Shown in pieces: positions 4,199 to 14,719 of a stretch of 64,000 bases of DNA. The translations under genes were made by a program, and so were the position numbers. The stretch covers positions 186,001-250,000 of the forward strand of contig NZ_LR593887.1 of NCBI RefSeq assembly GCF_901538355.1, written 5' to 3'. Within the stretch, counting starts at the first letter, position 1. Each line of letters starts with the position of its first letter. The notes beneath the pieces are model-generated. The model was not told the DNA's origin. It ran no database searches and saw nothing but the letters and a program-made list of their open reading frames with translations. This stretch comes from Tuwongella immobilis. Its GTDB lineage: Bacteria; Planctomycetota; Planctomycetia; Gemmatales; Gemmataceae.

Positions 4199-7100
4199 TT
4201 AGCGGCTTCCACGGCTGGGGCGATGGATTCGCTCGCCGGGATGCCACTCCAACAATGTATTGAGATCCATTTGTGTGGCGAGTCGTTTCCCATCCGGCGA
4301 AAACTGCACCGGTCGCGCTCCAGTCCGGGGCAGATCGATTGAGAGTGTCGCCACGCCTTGCTGAAGATCCCAAAATCGCAGAAATCGCTCGCTTCCCGAT
4401 GTGACCAACGTGCGATTGTCGTTGCGACAATGGAGGTATTCCACCGGGTTGCTCAGCACCATTCGTTGCTGGATGGCGTGGTTGGCAAGTCGGATTTGGA
4501 CCAAGCCATCTTGCACGCGGTCGGTGGTCACCAGCAGCGATTCCCCGTTCGGGGTGAGCAGGATATTCGTGATTCGCCCGGTGAATTGAGCGATTTCGAC
4601 GGTCTGGCGAGTCGCGCGGTCCAGCCGCAGAATTTGCCCACGCGCGGTGCCCACGAGAAACGCGGTTCCATCCGGCGACACGACCAGCGAGCGGATGCCC
4701 GGAATCTGGGTTTGAATGGGTGGCAGCGGTTTGCCGGTGAGCGTTGACCAGACCTGGATGTCGGTGGTTTGAAGTGTGCCCATCAACTCCGAGCCATCCG
4801 GTGAAAAAATCAATTGATTCGGGATGGGGTTGGCATCGACGATTTGGCTTTGCACCCGGCCAGTCTGGGTGTCAACAATCGCAATGTGCCCATGAACGGT
4901 GCTAACGGCCAGCCGCGCTCCATCCGGCGAATAGACCATGGAGCGAATTTCCTTGGCCTGGATGATTTCGATTGGCGGATTCATTCCAACAAGCGGAATG
5001 ATGCGGAGAGAGCCGCTGCTGTCACCCATGGCAAGTTGCGTCATCTTTGGATGATAGGCAATTTGGGTGATTCGCCCGCGAGTGCCGGTGAAGTGGCGAC
5101 GCTGATGCGGGCGTTGGTGCAAGTCCCAGGCAAAAATTTCGCCCTGACTGGTCAAGCTGAATGCCCGGTCGCCGCGCAGGGTCGTTAGCACTTTCAACAC
5201 CGAACTGCGATGCCCCGTCAGCAGGGTGTGCCCTTTTTGGTTGTCGGGAATCGGCCAAATGCGCACGGCCTGATCGTTGCTGCTGGTCAGCAAGGTGCCA
5301 ATGCCCGCAGGCATGCAGATGGATAAAATGCGTGCCGGGGGGGTGGGAATGATCGGAAACGGCGGCCGACTCATCTCCGGCGTTGGGAACAGCAACATCT
5401 GGTAAATGGGGCCATCTTGCGTGACGATAAATGCTGTGCGCGCGTCTGGAGACAATTCGATATCGGTAATCGGGCCTGCCAGTGGTTCGGTGGTGTGCTG
5501 CAGTTGCCAGGTTTGCGTGCTCCAAAATCGCAAGCGACGATCGTGCCCACCCGTGAGGAAATAGTCCATGCGCGGTGCGGTCGCCACACAGCGCACCGCG
5601 CTGCTTTGCCGCTCCAGCGTGGTCAGCACGTTCCGGGTTGCCAGGCTCCAAACGCGAATGGTTTGGTCTTCGCTGGTGGTGACAATTTGATCGGTGGTGA
5701 GCATCGCCACATCGGTCACCGGGCCATCATGCTTCCCCAGGTGAATGGGGCGCCGATTCTCGGCAGGAATCAAAAAGACGTCACCTGCGCGGGTGCCGAC
5801 GATGATCATTTGATTGTGACTGAGCACCGTCATGCATTGCGCGTCGAGAATTCCCAAGGGCACATTCACCAGGGGGATTCCCGATTGCGGATGGATCGAT
5901 CGCAGGGTGCCTCGCGTGTCGATTGCCCACAAGTGGTCATTGCGAGGATCGATGGCGAATGCACCCAACGAGTCGGCCTGGAGGTTGGATTTCCAGGCGG
6001 ATTGATCGCACAACGATTGCACGAGTTCCCATTCCCAGCCGCGGAATTCGGGCGGGCAGGTTTCGAGCAATCGCTCGGCGCTGGCCACAGCCGGCACCAA
6101 GGTTTGACGATACGCTAATTCCACGGTGTGGTGGGCATCCATGCGCAGCAGTCGGCCAACGGCGGCTTGCTCGGCTTGTCGCGCGGCGATGGCCTCATCT
6201 CGGGCGCGGGCGGCAGCATCGCGGTCGGCTTCGGCCTGTTTTCGGGCGAGTTCCTCGTTGTGACGGGCGGTTTCCGTGGCTTGTTGCAAGTCGCTCAGCT
6301 GTTGCCGCGCTTCTTCTTCCCGAGCCAGCGATTGGATCGCACTGACGGCGAAAATCAACAACCCCGTCACGGTCACCGACAGAATGTAGGCAATCGCAAT
6401 CGTCGGCTTGCGACGCACCCATTTATTGATGCGCTCAAAGATGCCTGGTGGCCGAATCTTCAACGGCTCATCGTTGAGCCAGCGCTGCAACTCGTCGGCC
6501 AATTCGCCGGCGCTTGCGAAGCGTTCGGAGGGGATTTTCGCCAGGCAAGTGCTGACGATGCGCTCCAAATCCAGAGAGATTCCCGGCACTTTCTGCCGCA
6601 GCGACGGTGGATCATCGAATTGTACTTTGCTGAGCAATTTCCAAACGTCGGCATGTTCAAACGGCGGCTTTCCGCAGAGCATTTCGTACAGAATCACGCC
6701 CAATGCGTACACATCGGCGGCGGGGCCAACCGATTGGGTGCCGCCCCGCGCCTGCTCCGGAGACATGTAGACTGGCGTGCCCAGCACATCTTCGGCCTGG
6801 GTGAGATTGGAGCCGCCGTCGATTTTCGCCAACCCGAAATCGACGATCTTCGGTTGCCCATGGCCATCGAACAGCACGTTGGCGGGCTTCAAATCGCGGT
6901 GGACGATCCCGGCATCGTGGGCCGCTTGAATGCCGCGGGCGAGCTTTTCGAGAATGATTCCCGCCACACGAGATGGAATCGGCCCCTCGCGCTGCAAGCG
7001 ATCCGCCAGCGAACCACCGGGCAGATATTCCATCGCCAGGTACGGTTGCCCCTGGGCTTCGCCGAATTCGTAAATCCGCACGACGGATGGATGGTCAATC

Positions 7101-7597
7101 GCGGCAATTGCTTCGGCTTCCGCCAGAAAGCGAACCAGGTCAATGGTTTGCGCACGCTGATCGACCATCTTCAGCGCCACCGGCCGATTGATGGGCTGCT
7201 GCACCGCGTGGTAGACCCGCCCCATGCCGCCGCGACCCAACAGCCCCAGCAAGTGGTAGCCGGGAATCGTGATTCGGTTGGTCGGGAGCGGCTCGACGGA
7301 GTCGCCTTGGGCCAAGGGGGAGAATCCGCCTTCGAGCATCACCATCGAGGTGACATGCGTGATGGGTTGGGCCGGACTCGCATAATCACTTGTGGATCCA
7401 TACCGGGCCACACGAGAGGGGTGCAGCGCTTCCAGGACATCATCGGTCGATTCGTAAGCGATGTTCCCACGCGAGGAATGCTCGGTGGGTGCCGGAGGTG
7501 TTGGCGGGACGACGTGTAACCCGGTCGAGGAGAGATGCTCCGGCTTGCGCGGAGAATCTGGCAGGGTATGATCGGAATCCGAGTGTGGTACCGTCAT
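4199..7597 (-). CDS. Membrane Ser/Thr protein kinase with WD40-type propeller sensor
   Basis: Reading from ATG at 7666 (1155 residues), the kinase domain spans about 136-400: glycine loop GLLGRGGMGRV, Lys166, HRDLKPAN (Asp258), DFG (Asp276) and GTPVYMSPEQ, all intact. A transmembrane helix follows at about 421-443, then a charged coiled coil (about 445-505), then a long C-terminal region of WD40-like blades (DQTIRVWSL, DRRLRFWS, DQAVRIWPI) reaching the end. The kinase faces the cytoplasm and the propeller the outside or periplasm, a common planctomycete design. I prefer the second ATG at 7597, because the first overlaps a 15-bp palindrome and has no ribosome site; the choice is not settled. 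The pseudo-caspase gene is 170 bases upstream on the same strand. Confidence 0.88.
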   Translation of the reverse strand: MTVPHSDSDHTLPDSPRKPEHLSSTGLHVVPPTPPAPTEHSSRGNIAYESTDDVLEALHPSRVARYGSTSDYASPAQPITHVTSMVMLEGGFSPLAQGDSVEPLPTNRITIPGYHLLGLLGRGGMGRVYHAVQQPINRPVALKMVDQRAQTIDLVRFLAEAEAIAAIDHPSVVRIYEFGEAQGQPYLAMEYLPGGSLADRLQREGPIPSRVAGIILEKLARGIQAAHDAGIVHRDLKPANVLFDGHGQPKIVDFGLAKIDGGSNLTQAEDVLGTPVYMSPEQARGGTQSVGPAADVYALGVILYEMLCGKPPFEHADVWKLLSKVQFDDPPSLRQKVPGISLDLERIVSTCLAKIPSERFASAGELADELQRWLNDEPLKIRPPGIFERINKWVRRKPTIAIAYILSVTVTGLLIFAVSAIQSLAREEEARQQLSDLQQATETARHNEELARKQAEADRDAAARARDEAIAARQAEQAAVGRLLRMDAHHTVELAYRQTLVPAVASAERLLETCPPEFRGWEWELVQSLCDQSAWKSNLQADSLGAFAIDPRNDHLWAIDTRGTLRSIHPQSGIPLVNVPLGILDAQCMTVLSHNQMIIVGTRAGDVFLIPAENRRPIHLGKHDGPVTDVAMLTTDQIVTTSEDQTIRVWSLATRNVLTTLERQSSAVRCVATAPRMDYFLTGGHDRRLRFWSTQTWQLQHTTEPLAGPITDIELSPDARTAFIVTQDGPIYQMLLFPTPEMSRPPFPIIPTPPARILSICMPAGIGTLLTSSNDQAVRIWPIPDNQKGHTLLTGHRSSVLKVLTTLRGDRAFSLTSQGEIFAWDLHQRPHQRRHFTGTRGRITQIAYHPKMTQLAMGDSSGSLRIIPLVGMNPPIEIIQAKEIRSMVYSPDGARLAVSTVHGHIAIVDTQTGRVQSQIVDANPIPNQLIFSPDGSELMGTLQTTDIQVWSTLTGKPLPPIQTQIPGIRSLVVSPDGTAFLVGTARGQILRLDRATRQTVEIAQFTGRITNILLTPNGESLLVTTDRVQDGLVQIRLANHAIQQRMVLSNPVEYLHCRNDNRTLVTSGSERFLRFWDLQQGVATLSIDLPRTGARPVQFSPDGKRLATQMDLNTLLEWHPGERIHRPSRGSR

Positions 7598-7652
7598 GAC
7601 GCAGGCTCGACCATGGGCCAACGAATCACCCGAAGGCTGCTCCGAAGTATTG

Positions 7653-7667
7653 TATGCTCGGAGCATA
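7653..7667. promoter_or_regulatory. Perfect 15-bp palindrome at the 5' end of the kinase gene
   Basis: TATGCTC-G-GAGCATA is a perfect inverted repeat with a one-base centre. It lies about 56 bases upstream of the preferred kinase start (7597) and covers the alternative ATG. Its length and symmetry fit a dimeric repressor operator. No matching copy was noticed elsewhere in the window. Confidence 0.35.
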
Positions 7668-7838: not shown

Positions 7839-10265
7839 TCAGCGTTGGCCGAAGCTGCTCGGTTGCCATTCCAGCCCCAGCATGACGTTCTTATCACGCT
7901 TGGCGAGGACGGCAAACGGCGTATCCTTATGGTTCTCAATCAAGGAATTGAGCGTATCGCGGGCTTCCTTGACCAATTCGCGGATTTCCGACGGAGCACG
8001 CATCTTTTCCGTGGACGCGAGTCGCCAGCCCTTGTGGCCCTTTTCCATATCCAATGGCGGCAGTTCGTCTTTGCGGACTTTGCCGAGCATCAGATTATAT
8101 TCCACCAGGTATGCCAATCGAATCTTGGTTTGTGCGACGGCGAAATCGTAGCTGGCTAACCATCGCTTGGACTTTTCCATGTCTCGATATTGTTCGACGG
8201 TGATTAATTCCTTGAGCAAGGATTCGAGCATCGTTTGCCGCACGGCGGGGATGCGCTGCAACGCGAGAATTTGCTTCTTGGCGGCATCGCTGGTTTCGCC
8301 GGTGAATTCTTCGGGCAGTTCGGCATCGTTGCCGCTTTCCGAGGTCGATTCACGCAATTCCCGCAGCGTTCGCAGGGCCATCAGCGTCCAGAATCGCAGC
8401 GGATATTTGTCCGGGTTGGCGTAAATCGTGGCATCGTCCACGTTATCCGGTGCGTAGTCTTTCATGACTTCCACCGGGAAGGGATAAATCTTCTCGAATT
8501 GCGGGGCAATCCCGTCTTTGCGGGCAATCTTAATCGATGGCACTTCGATGGTTTTGAGCAGCTTGGCAATCTCTTCCACGGCCACGCCTTGCGGAGGTTG
8601 CGGTAGTGTGAAGGTCTTGGCCGGTTCCGAGGGGTTGTACGACACTTGCGTGACTGGTGCCTCACCCGCGAGCACGGGCGTTTGCGTGCCGTCTTTCAGG
8701 AAGTTCATCGTTTCCGTCACTCGACTATTGACCGTTTCGGTCAAACCAGAGAGCGGCAACGGATCTTCCGGCCTCGGAATCCCGCCTCCGAGTTTCCCCT
8801 TGATGCTGGCATAGAAGAACGTGCTGAAAAAGACGCTGCCAAAGATTTCGTGCCCGCCATACCCCTGATAATCGTATTCATGCGAGTATTCTTTGGCCGA
8901 GCAGGAGGTCCACACTTGCACGCCTAGTGGGGGCGTGTGCAGGATTTTGGCCAATTCTTCGCTCATCGGCCCCGCGCTGGGGCGTTCCGTGCCGCGACCC
9001 GGATCGTATCGGTTGACATCCAGCACCAGCAATTTTTGGTTGGCGGTGCAGCGGTTGAGTTGATCGAACACCCATTCCATCGGAATCAGCGTTTCAACAT
9101 CATCGAGTTCGCCTTCCATGGGCACCAAATAGGCTTTGCCGTCTTTGGCGATGGCGTGACCAGCAAACAGCAGAATGATTCGGTCTTGAGCGCGGGTTGT
9201 CTGCACGAAGCGATCGATGGTATCCATGACCATCTTTTTCAACGGCGGACGCGAATCCTTGCCTCGCAAGCTGTCCGACAGTTCGTACACCTGATCCTTC
9301 GGAATCCACCAGAGTTTGGCGATTTTGGAGACGACGCCGTGAATATCACGCTGGTCGTTTTCTTCCGCGAACGGACTGCGACCGTTGTGGATGGGGTTGG
9401 CATACAAATAGTTGCAAATGTTGATCGCCAGCAATCGTCGGGGGAAGGTTCCACCGATCCCCGCCGGGGCATTATTGGCAGCATTCTCGGCTGCGGGGTC
9501 GTTCTTATTGTCGTTGTTGGCGACTTCCGTACTTTCGCCGTTGATCGATTGTTTAATCTTGCTGGTAATGTCGGGATTCAGAATCGCGACCACCAGCACC
9601 GTCACCACCATCAGCAGAAACATCATGCCGCCGCCCAGAAGCAGCACCAGTTTGTTGCTGCCGGTCTTGGCGGTGTATTTGCCTTTGCCACGATGCTTGG
9701 AGGATGCGGTGGAGAACGCCGGCTTGAATTCGCTGTTGGTCGAGGGAGCCTCGGTCGGCGGCGTGGGATAGCCCGGACCCGGCATCCCCGGCAGCATCGG
9801 GCCAGCGGCGTTTGGATCGTTCGGGTAGCCCGGCATTCCCGGATATGGCGGCAGAACCGGTTGGCCCGCTTGCGGATAGCCCGGTGGTGGGTAGCCAGGC
9901 GGATATCCCGGCGGCGGATACCCTTGCGGATAGCCCGGCGGGGTGGGGGGCATTCCGGGCACCGCGTTGGGGGCCATTCCCGGCGGCAGATCGAGTGTTG
10001 GCATCGGCCCAGCCATTGGCCCGGCTGCTGGCGGCATTCCCGGCGCGGGGGGCATCCCTGGCATGGGGACTTGCGCGGCGATTGGCGCGGGGATCGCACC
10101 GGCAGCCGCAGCCGCAGCCGCTTCGGGGATCGGCATCGGCGGACGCTTTTGCATTTGGATAAACGTGCCGCAGAATTTGCACCGCAGCGGCTGGCCAAGC
10201 CAATCCAGCGGAATCCGCAGACCTTGGCCACACGCGGGGCAGTTGGTTTGGACCCGTGTACTCAT
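7839..10265 (-). CDS. Caspase-fold (peptidase C14-like) membrane protein with zinc ribbon; nucleophile Cys replaced by Asn
   Basis: From ATG at 10265 (808 residues; a further 22 upstream codons look spurious), the N-terminus is a zinc ribbon (Cys9, 12, 29, 32: CPACG...CKFCG). A Pro/Gly/Met-rich linker (about 40-180) with GYPPPGYPPGYPP repeats follows, then one transmembrane helix (205-229), and a caspase-like domain (about 270-460). The histidine motif is present as LLFAGHAIAKDGKAYLVP (His370). The second motif, normally LDACR in bacterial C14 peptidases, reads LDVNRYDP, so the Cys position is Asn418. Proteolysis is therefore doubtful; binding or scaffolding is more likely. The last 300 residues are uncharacterised and largely helical. 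The WD40 kinase gene follows on the same strand. Confidence 0.78.
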   Translation of the reverse strand: MSTRVQTNCPACGQGLRIPLDWLGQPLRCKFCGTFIQMQKRPPMPIPEAAAAAAAGAIPAPIAAQVPMPGMPPAPGMPPAAGPMAGPMPTLDLPPGMAPNAVPGMPPTPPGYPQGYPPPGYPPGYPPPGYPQAGQPVLPPYPGMPGYPNDPNAAGPMLPGMPGPGYPTPPTEAPSTNSEFKPAFSTASSKHRGKGKYTAKTGSNKLVLLLGGGMMFLLMVVTVLVVAILNPDITSKIKQSINGESTEVANNDNKNDPAAENAANNAPAGIGGTFPRRLLAINICNYLYANPIHNGRSPFAEENDQRDIHGVVSKIAKLWWIPKDQVYELSDSLRGKDSRPPLKKMVMDTIDRFVQTTRAQDRIILLFAGHAIAKDGKAYLVPMEGELDDVETLIPMEWVFDQLNRCTANQKLLVLDVNRYDPGRGTERPSAGPMSEELAKILHTPPLGVQVWTSCSAKEYSHEYDYQGYGGHEIFGSVFFSTFFYASIKGKLGGGIPRPEDPLPLSGLTETVNSRVTETMNFLKDGTQTPVLAGEAPVTQVSYNPSEPAKTFTLPQPPQGVAVEEIAKLLKTIEVPSIKIARKDGIAPQFEKIYPFPVEVMKDYAPDNVDDATIYANPDKYPLRFWTLMALRTLRELRESTSESGNDAELPEEFTGETSDAAKKQILALQRIPAVRQTMLESLLKELITVEQYRDMEKSKRWLASYDFAVAQTKIRLAYLVEYNLMLGKVRKDELPPLDMEKGHKGWRLASTEKMRAPSEIRELVKEARDTLNSLIENHKDTPFAVLAKRDKNVMLGLEWQPSSFGQR

Positions 10266-10435
10266 GTTTCTGCTTCTCCAACACGCCCGACGGGCTTCCG
10301 ATTGGAACAATCCTAACGGTTCAGACGCCATTGTATCACATTCGGTTCCCGGAAGTGGCCACCCGATTGACGCGATTTTGATGGGGAGCGGTCGAGTTCC
10401 TTGGAGGCATTTGGGATTTTTTTCACGAAATCCAC

Positions 10436-10559: not shown

Positions 10560-11510
10560 TTGACTCGAATGCTTGCTCTTACGATGTTTCGTCGTCTGCG
10601 TGCCTTCACGCTGATTGAGCTGTTGGTGGTGATCGCGATTATCGCCATCCTCATCGGTCTGCTTCTTCCCGCCGTTCAAAAGGTCCGCGAAGCTGCTGCT
10701 CGGATGAAGTGTCAAAACAACATCAAGCAAATTGGCCTGGCGCTGCACAACTATGAAGGCGCGTATGGCAAGTTCCCCCGTGGACAGAATTCGCCCGCGA
10801 CTGCTCCCAACTGGCGACTCACGCTGTTCCCCTACATGGAACAAGAAAACGTCTATCGCCAAGTGAATCTGGCGAATGTTTGGACCAGCACGGTGCTCAA
10901 CAATCTCACCATTCAGACCTGGGTGTGCCCGTCGAGCAATCTGCCGACCAACCCGACCGATGCCAGCTACAACAACGGTAGCCTGGGACCAAACGGCCAC
11001 CAAGTGCCGGGTTATGTCGGTGTGGCGGGTGCGTTCCCCGATCCGGCGGGCCGCGGCGTGTTTGCCTCCAACTACGGCGGCTGGTGGGCGACGACTGGCA
11101 TTCTGCTCGCCAATCAAGATGTGAAGATTACCGACATTACCGATGGCACTTCGAATACGTATGCCGTGCTGGAACAATCCGGCCGCGTGGGCACCGCGGA
11201 TCTGCGCAGCCGCTATTACAGCCCCTGGGCTGGGGTGACGTTCAGCTTCATTCCGACGACTGCTCAATCGGGCACCGATTCGTGGGGCATGGGCATCACC
11301 ACGGTGGCCTACGCCATCAACGCCCGTACTGCCGCTGCGGGTAGCGACAACGTGTGGGACGGCAGCACGGTGGCCAACTCGTTCCATACCGGCGGCATCA
11401 ACGCGCTAATGGGCGATGGCTCGGTGCGATTTATCACCGACAACACCAACTTCACCAACCTGCAAGCCATGTGCAGCCGCGATGATGGTGTGGTGACGAC
11501 CGATCCTTGA
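10560..11510 (+). CDS. DUF1559 domain protein (type II pseudopilin-like)
   Basis: The 316-residue protein has a prepilin-type N-terminus, [18 protein letters not shown], with the class III cleavage context before F-T-L-I-E and a single hydrophobic helix. The planctomycete DUF1559 region follows ([26 protein letters not shown]), and the characteristic C-terminal [17 protein letters not shown] (H-x9-DG) motif closes it. Such proteins occur in dozens of copies per planctomycete genome and are thought to form or decorate pseudopilus-like or surface structures; the function is unproven. AAGGAG lies seven bases before a TTG at 10560, which supports the non-ATG start; ATGs at 10569 and 10584 are alternatives. 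Confidence 0.9.
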
Positions 11511-11532: not shown

Positions 11533-12852
11533 TTACTTCGGGGATTTTGTGGAGCCTGTCAAGCCGTCGGCGGTTGCCGATGCTTGGCGGGCTTCTTCCA
11601 TTTTGCCCTGTTTTTCGAGAATCACGGCCAATTCTCGATATGCGCCGACCAATTCCGGACGAGCGGCGATGGCTTGTCGGGCGGCGGATTCTGCTTCGGG
11701 CAGTTGGCCCAGGATGCGATAGGCGCGTGCCCGATACAGATCGGCCAAGCCCTGCTCGCTGGGGCTGACCGCGCTTTGCTGCAATTCCTGAATGGCGGCG
11801 GTGAGTTTCTTCTGGGCAGATTCCGCTTGGCCGCGTTGCGTCAACTGTTCGCTTTGCCCCAAAAAGACAATGCCCAGATAAAATCGGGCCATGCCATGGG
11901 CCGGATTCTGTTCCAAGAGTGATCGCAATTCGGATTCCGCCTCGGCGAATTGGCCCATTTCGGCCAAGGTGCTGCCGATTTTCATGCGGGTGAGTTCATC
12001 CGGTTGGGTGGCGAAACATTCGCGGTACAACGCCAAGGCGGGTTCGTAACGTCGGGCTGCCGTTAGTGCATCGGCCTGCTGCAATTTCCGTCGCCGACCC
12101 ACTTCCCGCGTGCTAATTTCGATCAGCGGATCGTTCTCCCACAGCGCATCTTGCGGAATGCTATTCGCAATCGCTTGGTAGGATTGGGCTTGCGTCGCGT
12201 TCCCTTGTCGATAGGCAATCGTTGCCAGGGCAATGGCCGCTTTCTTGCGTGCAGCCGGGGCCGGCAGCGCCTGTTGAAAGAACGCTTCCGCTTCGGGGAG
12301 TTGATCCCGCCACAGTGCGAGCGCACCCCGATTCATCGCCAAGCGGGGATGGTTGGGCGTGCTGGCTTCTTCTTCACGCAAGAATTGTTCGGCCTCATCA
12401 AAGCGATTGGCATCGAGCAGCGTTTCCACCAGCCGCATCCGCAGGGCCGAGCGTTCGCCATCGCCTTTGGCCCGCTCCAGTGCTTGTTGCAGATAGCCAA
12501 TGGCCGCCTGCGGATCGGTCCCCAACAGGAAGATGCCGCGCAAATACGGCCACCGGCACTCGGTGGGATTGAGCCGCATCGCCTGGGCATAGCACGCATC
12601 CGCCTCTGGATGAAAGGCGTGGGCGTTGAAGCGCATGGCCAGTTCGCCCCAATCTTTGGCGGAATCCGGCTTGGATTGCACGGTTTTTCGCTGCGATTCC
12701 AGTGCATCGCGGATTTCCGGATCGCTCAATCCTGCGGGCAGGCTGGGCGGAATCACCGGCAGCGGACGCAGGCGTTGCCAGGCGAGAAATCCACCGGGAA
12801 TGCCCACCAGCAACAGACTGCCCAGCAGCCACTTGCGCAGTCGCGGTTTCAT
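11533..12852 (-). CDS. Membrane-anchored tetratricopeptide repeat protein
   Basis: The start ATG at 12852 overlaps the upstream stop (ATGA, four-base overlap), giving 439 residues; the longer upstream frame is spurious. Residues about 7-26 are a signal anchor (LLGSLLLVGIPGGFLAW). The rest is built of TPR helices (for example DACYAQAMRLNP, ALALYRECFATQPDE, LADLYRARAYRILGQ) from about residue 60 to 430. A periplasmic scaffold role is likely. Translational coupling to the CRTAC lipoprotein gene suggests they act in the same complex: planctomycete CRTAC/UnbV proteins are frequently paired with TPR proteins. Confidence 0.82.
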   Translation of the reverse strand: MKPRLRKWLLGSLLLVGIPGGFLAWQRLRPLPVIPPSLPAGLSDPEIRDALESQRKTVQSKPDSAKDWGELAMRFNAHAFHPEADACYAQAMRLNPTECRWPYLRGIFLLGTDPQAAIGYLQQALERAKGDGERSALRMRLVETLLDANRFDEAEQFLREEEASTPNHPRLAMNRGALALWRDQLPEAEAFFQQALPAPAARKKAAIALATIAYRQGNATQAQSYQAIANSIPQDALWENDPLIEISTREVGRRRKLQQADALTAARRYEPALALYRECFATQPDELTRMKIGSTLAEMGQFAEAESELRSLLEQNPAHGMARFYLGIVFLGQSEQLTQRGQAESAQKKLTAAIQELQQSAVSPSEQGLADLYRARAYRILGQLPEAESAARQAIAARPELVGAYRELAVILEKQGKMEEARQASATADGLTGSTKSPK

Positions 12853-14609
12853 GGCGACACCTTGGTTCCTTGGCCTTGGGTGAGGGTGATTCGCCGATCG
12901 ACGGCCCCGCCGGGGAACCGCTCGAATTGTCCGTCTGGCCAACGAATGGTGATCGCATCCACCTGCGTGGAATCGCCCAGGCCGAATGTCGCAATCGGCG
13001 AGCTGGCGCTGAGGTAACTTTCTGCGGATTGAATGAGCCGAAATTGGCTCTGATTCCCGATCGTCAGCCGCACTTCGGCCCCGAGTGCATCGCGCTTGGC
13101 ACTGCCGAGCATCGCCCGAATTTGCAGCCAATGTCCGGAATGCTCCCCGACATTGCGCAGCAGTCGGGCTGGCTCACCAATCGCGGTCATGAGCAGATCA
13201 TCCCGGCCATCGTGGTCCCAATCCGCACTCGCCAACCCGCGGGCAACCGTGAAATGCCCCGCAATGGCTGGCTCATTTCGGGAGCGATCCGCAAATTGGC
13301 CGTTGCCCCGATTGCGGAGCAGTTGATTGCGTTCCGCGTAGGGTTGCCAATGCTCGGCAATCCCTGGCTTGGGCGTCGGGACCGATTCCCGACTGACTCG
13401 CCCGTTGACTATCGCCAGATCCAGCCAGCCATCGCGGTCAAAATCGCGCATGAGTGTGCCGAAGCCAGTCCCCCTCCAGCGCGTTTGTGTCAGCCCGGCC
13501 AGCGGGGTCACATCCTTGAACACACCGGCGGGCTTCTGCTTCCACAATGTGTTCATTTCCACGGTCAAATGCGTCATGTACACATCCAAGAGCGAGTCGT
13601 TATCGACATCGCCCAGTGCGATGCCCATCCCCGCTTGCGCCTGTCCCATGAGCGTGTAGGCGATGCCACGCGGAATGCCCTCTTCGCGGAAGGTGCCATT
13701 TCGCTGGTTGATCCAGAGATGATTCGGCTTGCCGTCGTTGGCGATGAGCAGATCCGGCCAGCCATCGCCGGTGAAGTCGGCGGCGACGATTCCCAATCCG
13801 GGGCCGGGAGATTGGGCCAATCCCGCGGGAACGGTGCGATCCTCGAATTGCAGCGATTCCGGGGCGGCGAGCGGGGAGATGCCCAAATTCCGGTACAACT
13901 TGGTGACGGTGCCCGCAAAATTTTTCGGATTGCAATAGTCTGGCTCGTTCGTCGCCCCGCGACAGACCCAATGTTCGACAAAATCGACGTAGTTGGTCAC
14001 GGCCAAATCCAGCCAGCCATCCCGATCGTAATCGACCATCACTGCCGAAGTCGCCCAGAGCGGGTTATTCAGCTTCGCCGATGCGGTAATGTCCAGAAAT
14101 TTCAGCCCGCCGCGATTCAGGAACAATTTCACGGAACGGTATTGCGTGATGAGAATTTCGGGCAATCCATCGTTGGTCAGATCGCCAATGGCAACGCCCA
14201 TGTGATAGCCGGGAATTTCCAGGCCGGAATCGAGCGTGACTTCGGCGAATTTCCCGTCATCGAGTTGGCGAAACAGGGCAATCGATGGTGTCGGTCCGCC
14301 GTTGCCCAGCAGGAGAATCTCTTCGCGGCCATCGCCATCAAGATCGTGCAAGGCACAGCCGGAGCCGATGATTTGCGGCATGGCATAGCGTTCCAGATCG
14401 GTGACGGCATGCTGCCAACGAACGCCGCGCTCGGCGGTGACATCCGCGAACCACGCGGGGCCATCGTCCGGGACAGGGGTGAGTTCCGTCGCGGTCCCCG
14501 GAGGAGACCCAGCGGCAGCGGAATCGAGCGGGGCCACGCTTGGCTGGCATCCGACGAGGATCAATCCGGCCAATAGCGGCATTAGCATGCGGGCAGGCAC
14601 TGCGACCAT
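12849..14609 (-). CDS. CRTAC1-family FG-GAP/ASPIC-UnbV lipoprotein
   Basis: GGAG seven bases upstream supports ATG at 14609 (586 residues) over the first in-frame ATG at 14648. The N-terminus is a lipoprotein signal (LLAGLILVG-C, lipobox Cys about residue 21). Several FG-GAP blades with Ca-binding D-x-D-x-D-G motifs follow (DLDGDGREE, DYDRDGWLDLAV, DFDRDGWLDLAI, DWDHDGRDDLLM). The C-terminal ASPIC/UnbV domain (about 500-586) contains LGAEVRLTIG and ITIRWPDGQFERF. The family is secreted and predicted to be a calcium-stabilised beta-propeller; the biochemical role is unknown. It precedes and overlaps the TPR gene, and follows the phosphatase gene by about 110 bases. Confidence 0.85.
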   Translation of the reverse strand: MVAVPARMLMPLLAGLILVGCQPSVAPLDSAAAGSPPGTATELTPVPDDGPAWFADVTAERGVRWQHAVTDLERYAMPQIIGSGCALHDLDGDGREEILLLGNGGPTPSIALFRQLDDGKFAEVTLDSGLEIPGYHMGVAIGDLTNDGLPEILITQYRSVKLFLNRGGLKFLDITASAKLNNPLWATSAVMVDYDRDGWLDLAVTNYVDFVEHWVCRGATNEPDYCNPKNFAGTVTKLYRNLGISPLAAPESLQFEDRTVPAGLAQSPGPGLGIVAADFTGDGWPDLLIANDGKPNHLWINQRNGTFREEGIPRGIAYTLMGQAQAGMGIALGDVDNDSLLDVYMTHLTVEMNTLWKQKPAGVFKDVTPLAGLTQTRWRGTGFGTLMRDFDRDGWLDLAIVNGRVSRESVPTPKPGIAEHWQPYAERNQLLRNRGNGQFADRSRNEPAIAGHFTVARGLASADWDHDGRDDLLMTAIGEPARLLRNVGEHSGHWLQIRAMLGSAKRDALGAEVRLTIGNQSQFRLIQSAESYLSASSPIATFGLGDSTQVDAITIRWPDGQFERFPGGAVDRRITLTQGQGTKVSP

Positions 14610-14719
14610 ACGAACGCTCCGAAGGGCCGATCGAAATCGATTGCGCATTCCGAGTCAACGAGAAGCCGATTTCGGACTTCGGATTGCGCGGCGGAATGCA
14701 AATGCCTTGTCGAGATGGG

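Follow-up and report, generated by a model that had tools for sequence, protein, structure and literature searches.

A putative pseudo-caspase from an order-wide family of membrane-anchored planctomycete proteins

The human pseudo-caspase FLIP(L), a cytosolic protein with death-effector domains whose partner is caspase-8, has no catalytic cysteine and acts by binding. Pseudo-caspases are also already known in Bacteria, and the available sections of the study concerned describe pseudo-orthocaspases from Cyanobacteria and Alphaproteobacteria (PMC6426788). According to these sections, the abundant ones change the catalytic His and Cys together (YS, YN, YA, FS), QC and HA variants being reported as well (PMC6426788). 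A survey of prokaryotic metacaspases gives, in the part consulted, only 64% of intact dyads for Planctomycetes, and notes N-terminal helices and an extracellular location in general terms (PMC3501461). Finally, an established architecture of planctomycetes is that of the kinase-TM-WD40 proteins, in which the kinase lies inside and the WD40 repeats outside (PMC11032199).

Here, we analysed a protein of Tuwongella immobilis encoded in a stretch of 64,000 nucleotides (the window, whose coordinates are used throughout). We propose, with a probability of roughly 0.6, that it is an extracytoplasmic pseudo-caspase, selected for binding and not performing caspase-type cutting, and that it belongs to a family of single-pass membrane proteins present across the order. 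By analogy, it resembles FLIP(L) in having a caspase fold without a catalytic Cys, while FLIP(L) is cytosolic and the window protein is predicted to be extracytoplasmic. With the pseudo-orthocaspases, as described in the sections available, it would share an intact p20 fold and a substituted dyad, and perhaps a retained acidic pocket residue; it differs from them in that the Cys alone is changed, the His being kept in all 30 Cys-less members, and in that the family belongs to one planctomycete order (PMC6426788). The proportion of intact dyads (61 of 92 members) is similar to the 64% of the surveyed metacaspases, but the part of that survey consulted mentions neither a zinc ribbon, nor cytochrome c, nor an order-wide family (PMC3501461). 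Like the kinase-TM-WD40 proteins, as excerpted, it would have a signal domain inside, one helix and a large domain outside, a zinc ribbon replacing the kinase in all cases except one relative, L045 (PMC11032199). Searches of the literature on caspases of Gemmataceae and planctomycetes, covered in part as excerpts, found no description of the present family; within that literature, neither the family nor its retention of the His, its topology or its fusions appear to be described.

The gene (7839..10265) lies on the reverse strand, as do all features of the window given below unless stated otherwise, and its 808 codons are read through with no interruption. An alternative longer start is found at 10331; most relatives start at M..xV.A.CPxC, which corresponds to the start at 10265. 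The protein is composed of a zinc ribbon, a Pro/Gly/Tyr-rich arm, one transmembrane helix, a caspase fold and, at the C-terminus, a helical domain. The zinc ribbon (CPAC...CKFC, residues 9-32, 10170..10241), predicted to be cytoplasmic, carries cysteines C9, C12, C29 and C32, and Pfam Zn_ribbon_4 is matched by 7 of the 36 relatives in our alignment A1. The arm, read from the translation, forms a linker in which GYPP repeats occur (about residues 43-190, 9696..10139), and the helix is a strongly hydrophobic segment (residues 208-226, 9588..9644). An earlier note on this DNA, made from the sequence without database searches, had listed the zinc ribbon, the GYPP repeats, the membrane helix, the His motif LLFAGHAIAKDGKAYLVP and LDVNR, all of which are present. 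Among the 92 aligned members of the family (hereafter rows), 80 have both the zinc ribbon and the helix. These rows are the window protein and 91 proteins from fetched loci, a subset of all matches in the order. The counts leave out L001, which is the window itself, L003, which is another caspase, and the fragments present in L029 and L071. L037 was retained although its local score is low, and L055b, L050 and L081 were read as whole ORFs, as their domain was truncated when the sequence was trimmed to the first Met.

At E 1e-6, the family is matched in 96 of the 102 genomes of the order, and in 89 of the 95 genomes of the taxonomic family. Of 149 genomes sampled evenly across the phylum, 9 were matched at 1e-8, that of T. 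immobilis included. This search for full-length members outside the order gave none in the other eight: seven match the C-terminal domain only, and one the caspase domain only. In the T. immobilis genome, the only full-length match to the window protein is the window protein itself. No gene neighbourhood is common to the whole family, synteny being found only within sub-clades.

The caspase-fold domain (residues 271-539, 8649..9455), predicted to be extracytoplasmic, is supported by an NCBIfam match, a structural model with its structural matches, and a profile of the family aligned with MALT1. For the window protein itself, Pfam gave no match, even at E 10, and the NCBIfam model caspase_w_EACC1 was matched at E 7.1e-6 with 25.7 bits, under the curated cut-off of 140 bits. 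Among the members of alignment A1, Peptidase_C14 matches 14 of 36 (Pfam) and caspase_w_EACC1 matches 31 of 36 at E 0.01 (NCBIfam); a near relative, L010 (39% identity), exceeds the Pfam cut-off for Peptidase_C14. Taken by itself, the window protein has a weak sequence link to caspases, and it is its relatives that carry this link. The AlphaFold model of residues 262-808 is confident, with a pLDDT of 87.3 and a pTM of 0.88. It resembles MALT1 (Foldseek E 7.8e-9) as well as procaspase-6, the latter over 206 aligned residues at 14% identity (Z 19.5, rmsd 2.6). Orthocaspases are by definition without a p10 domain; the structural match to caspase-6 extends to residue 285 of its chain, that is into the small-subunit part. 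As modelled, the caspase fold of the window protein is more than a motif match. While MALT1 and procaspase-6 share this fold, and while the D-x-C-R column falls on LDMCR of MALT1 in a weak profile match, their identity to the window protein is 12-14%, their nucleophile-position residue is not the Asn found here, and neither its membrane anchor nor its C-terminal domain is related to them.

We then considered the catalytic residues. The earlier note had read the protein as keeping the catalytic His with the Cys replaced, and had suggested an alignment with peptidase C14 families to confirm the Cys column. Both readings stand: His370 (9156..9158) occupies the catalytic-His position of caspases, where 91 of the 92 rows have His, and Asn418 (9012..9014) occupies the Cys column, LDVNR standing for LDxCR. 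The family profile puts the DVCR column on LDMCR of MALT1, whose Cys is the nucleophile, although this match is weak (E 0.1). The residues in the column are C in 62 rows, N in 11, F in 10, A in 7, and G and S in one each; F or A in this position is unable to act as a nucleophile. Asp416, the D of DxC (9018..9020), is present in 61 of the 62 Cys rows, and all 30 Cys-less members retain both His370 and Asp416. Glu463 (8877..8879), which the window protein also keeps, is found in 62/62 Cys rows and in 23/30 Cys-less rows. A role of Asp416 and Glu463 in a specificity pocket would be by analogy. The sole change of the His is found in L009, the closest relative (45% identity), which has Gln in its place and retains the Cys. 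One half of the dyad is thus lost in L009, and the other in the window protein. With Asn418 in the nucleophile column, the non-proteolytic, membrane-anchored caspase fold put forward in the earlier note is the most likely reading of this sequence.

Cys455, in the motif TSCSA (8901..8903), is a second conserved cysteine, found in 60/62 Cys rows and 30/30 Cys-less rows. Given this conservation in 90 of the 92 rows, and its place on a strand that presumably adjoins the active site (from the alignment and the topology of caspases), the window protein could in principle still be a protease through Cys455 or another group. We consider this highly improbable, as Cys455 is equally conserved where the normal Cys is present and is thus no replacement, and as the loss of Glu463 in 7 of the 30 Cys-less rows, against none of the 62 Cys rows, suggests a relaxed substrate recognition.

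Whether homologues retain the Cys, a question raised by the earlier note, has a divided answer: most do (62/92), but it was lost repeatedly, including in whole clades, F being fixed in a clade of 9 rows and N in one of 3. On a tree of the 92 rows built with a quick method, the Cys-less label requires 11 parsimony changes, compared with 25.4 when labels are shuffled, and the supported (starred) branches force at least 8 events of Cys change. Assuming no regain, there are 13 losses; with midpoint rooting, parsimony gives 6 losses and 5 gains, so that some changes may run in either direction. A Cys-bearing ancestor would be expected by analogy with caspases at large.

We also estimated dN/dS for 10 pairs among the relatives of the window protein; six gave ratios, three were saturated and one was unreadable. 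The Cys-less pairs gave 0.064, 0.043, 0.081 and 0.151, and the two Cys-bearing pairs 0.036 and 0.167. Judged from these sequences, the Cys-less relatives are under purifying selection, that is, they are maintained proteins. Moreover, His370 and Asp416 are unchanged over 9.3 substitutions per site in Cys-less lineages and 4.6 on the loss branches. Taken together with the low dN/dS, this argues that the role of both residues in Cys-less members is independent of the nucleophile. Of 260 columns, that of Glu463 alone is unchanged in Cys lineages while changing at least 3 times in Cys-less ones. This is in keeping with a residue linked to cutting, but is suggestive only, the 4 changes falling in two or three clades. 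That the window protein is a decaying relic without function, as the loss of its nucleophile might indicate, is barely credible in view of the full-length ORF with all its domains, the retention of the family across the order, and the range of dN/dS in Cys-less pairs of relatives (0.04-0.15).

The pseudo-caspase that we propose would be oriented with its caspase and helical domains outside the cytoplasm, and its zinc ribbon and arm inside. This orientation is the most likely one and has good support from four kinds of sequence evidence that agree. First, the net charge is +6 in the 20 residues before the helix and 0 in the 20 residues after it; the charge is higher before than after the helix in 79 of the 82 rows that could be scored, reverse in 2 and equal in 1. 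Second, paralogues such as L069 and L082 have no zinc ribbon or arm, and their N-terminus is signal-peptide-like. Third, in L045 (1135-4233, on the same contig as L114), a single ORF combines a zinc ribbon, a Hanks kinase, a helix, the caspase domain and the C-terminal domain; the kinase (Pkinase E 4.1e-44), placed after the zinc ribbon and before the helix, looks intact, and kinases require cytosolic ATP. Finally, in L011, L012 and L013, whose genomes are related so that we regard them as a single fusion event, the C-terminal domain is followed by a cytochrome c domain with a CxxCH motif (PSCyt1, E 3e-6 to 3.7e-7), and c-type haem is attached outside the cytoplasm. Named equivalents of these cytochrome c-fused proteins include that of Limnoglobus roseus, L106. 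The membrane scaffold suggested in the earlier note is thus upheld as regards the anchoring by a helix, and changed in that the caspase domain would most likely lie outside the cytoplasm.

The C-terminal domain (residues 541-805, 7851..8645) is TPR-like at best. The closest matches to its mostly helical model are designed helical-peptide binders, 14-3-3 and TPR proteins, all weak (Z no higher than 9.2). A known fold was sought for it and set aside, with a best Foldseek E of 0.17 and Z of at most 9.2, and we claim no family. In L125-L129, which come from the genomes of the phylum sample that match this domain only, it stands behind a VWA-like domain, recognised by eye (Pfam VWA is matched in L125, not in L127), and in L131 a kinase, a helix and the C-terminal domain are fused. 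Across L125-L129 and L130-L135, it was observed behind VWA-like domains, often in tandem genes, behind a kinase and helix, or alone after a signal peptide. From these sequences, it would be an uncharacterised extracytoplasmic module of planctomycetes.

Upstream of the caspase gene, on the forward strand, 10560-11510 (+) is a divergent pilin-like gene (DUF1559/SBP_bac_10) with an N_methyl motif. Long ORFs lie at 12849-14648 (-) and 11533-13131 (-), the former reading by eye as an FG-GAP/ASPIC-type repeat protein and the latter as a TPR protein.

The gene that follows the pseudo-caspase (4199..7666) encodes a Hanks kinase-TM-WD40 protein of 1155 aa (Pkinase E 5.8e-55 and WD40 repeats). On visual inspection, its K, HRD and DFG motifs are intact, as is its helix. 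The earlier note was right that such a kinase adjoins the gene, and had supposed that it might regulate the window protein. The latter could be a dedicated substrate or partner of this kinase, both forming one trans-membrane signalling unit: the genes are on the same strand, 172 nt apart, with no terminator-like site found in the gap, and L045 joins a kinase to the caspase as L131 does to the helix and C-terminal domain. However, the adjacency is not conserved. Save for the L045 fusion, a search up to 1 kb away found no kinase around the 57 rows whose loci span 9 kb or more, and the nearest one stands at 1.9 kb. This count used the kinase domain encoded in the window as query at E 1e-10, and the flank on one side is short in some of these rows, so that a neighbour that is strongly diverged or lies in unsequenced DNA could escape it. 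In addition, the genome has 111 matches to kinase domains, and we estimate a chance kinase neighbour at about 4%, assuming some 5,500 genes. As the caspase domain most likely lies outside, a cytosolic kinase could touch only the zinc-ribbon arm. Regulation by the neighbouring kinase is therefore a weak lead, drawn from one fusion and one adjacency, and a dedicated partnership seems rather unlikely. As for defence, no PADLOC model matched the window protein at E 0.01, and the neighbouring kinase matches generic kinase-bearing models.

By analogy with FLIP(L), the window protein could also pair with a Cys-bearing, active caspase and inhibit or activate it. A candidate exists in the same genome, L136 (G000:C1:735446-736156), which has an intact SGHG / LDACR dyad and a signal-like N-terminus, hence the same compartment. 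However, L136 bears only a distant similarity to the window protein (26% across about 120 residues), and the genome has a single member of the family. Since the Cys-bearing members are found in other species, most pseudo-members have no active sister inside the family, and we regard such a pairing as unlikely. L136 is also the only Pfam-scoring caspase of this genome, with TPR-like repeats by eye. Separately, L002 (G000:C1:85969-86430) is a second caspase fold of the genome without the catalytic Cys, reading LDGVH with the His kept; it has an N-terminal hydrophobic segment and, by eye, a C-terminal FKBP-type prolyl isomerase.

Altogether, sequence and model point most likely to a protein that is not a cysteine protease, but a membrane-anchored scaffold for binding or sensing outside the cytoplasm. 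The caspase groove, with His370, Asp416 and Glu463, and the helical domain would grip a protein or peptide partner on the outer side of the membrane, the bound state being relayed or anchored on the inner side by the zinc-ribbon arm. In the Cys-bearing members, the shared scaffold would probably cut as well; indeed, as most members keep the Cys (62/92), proteolysis is probably within the function of the family. An exception of recent origin may be what the window protein represents, since its pocket residues are intact and L009, its closest relative, has the Cys with Gln for His.

For the family across the order, we offer a more tentative and doubtful picture, in which the extracytoplasmic caspase fold would be the outer receptor of transmembrane signalling, modular with zinc ribbons, kinases and cytochrome c, and would have switched many times from cutting to binding with the catalytic His and Asp kept. 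If this is true, the caspase fold has also evolved, in one of its branches, into a receptor located outside the cell membrane. Within one conserved architecture, the family provides a natural series of caspase folds with and without cutting, and 'caspase' annotations in Planctomycetes need to be checked at the Cys column. It makes testable both the idea of a caspase domain as an extracytoplasmic receptor and the question of what preserves the catalytic His and Asp after the loss of the nucleophile.
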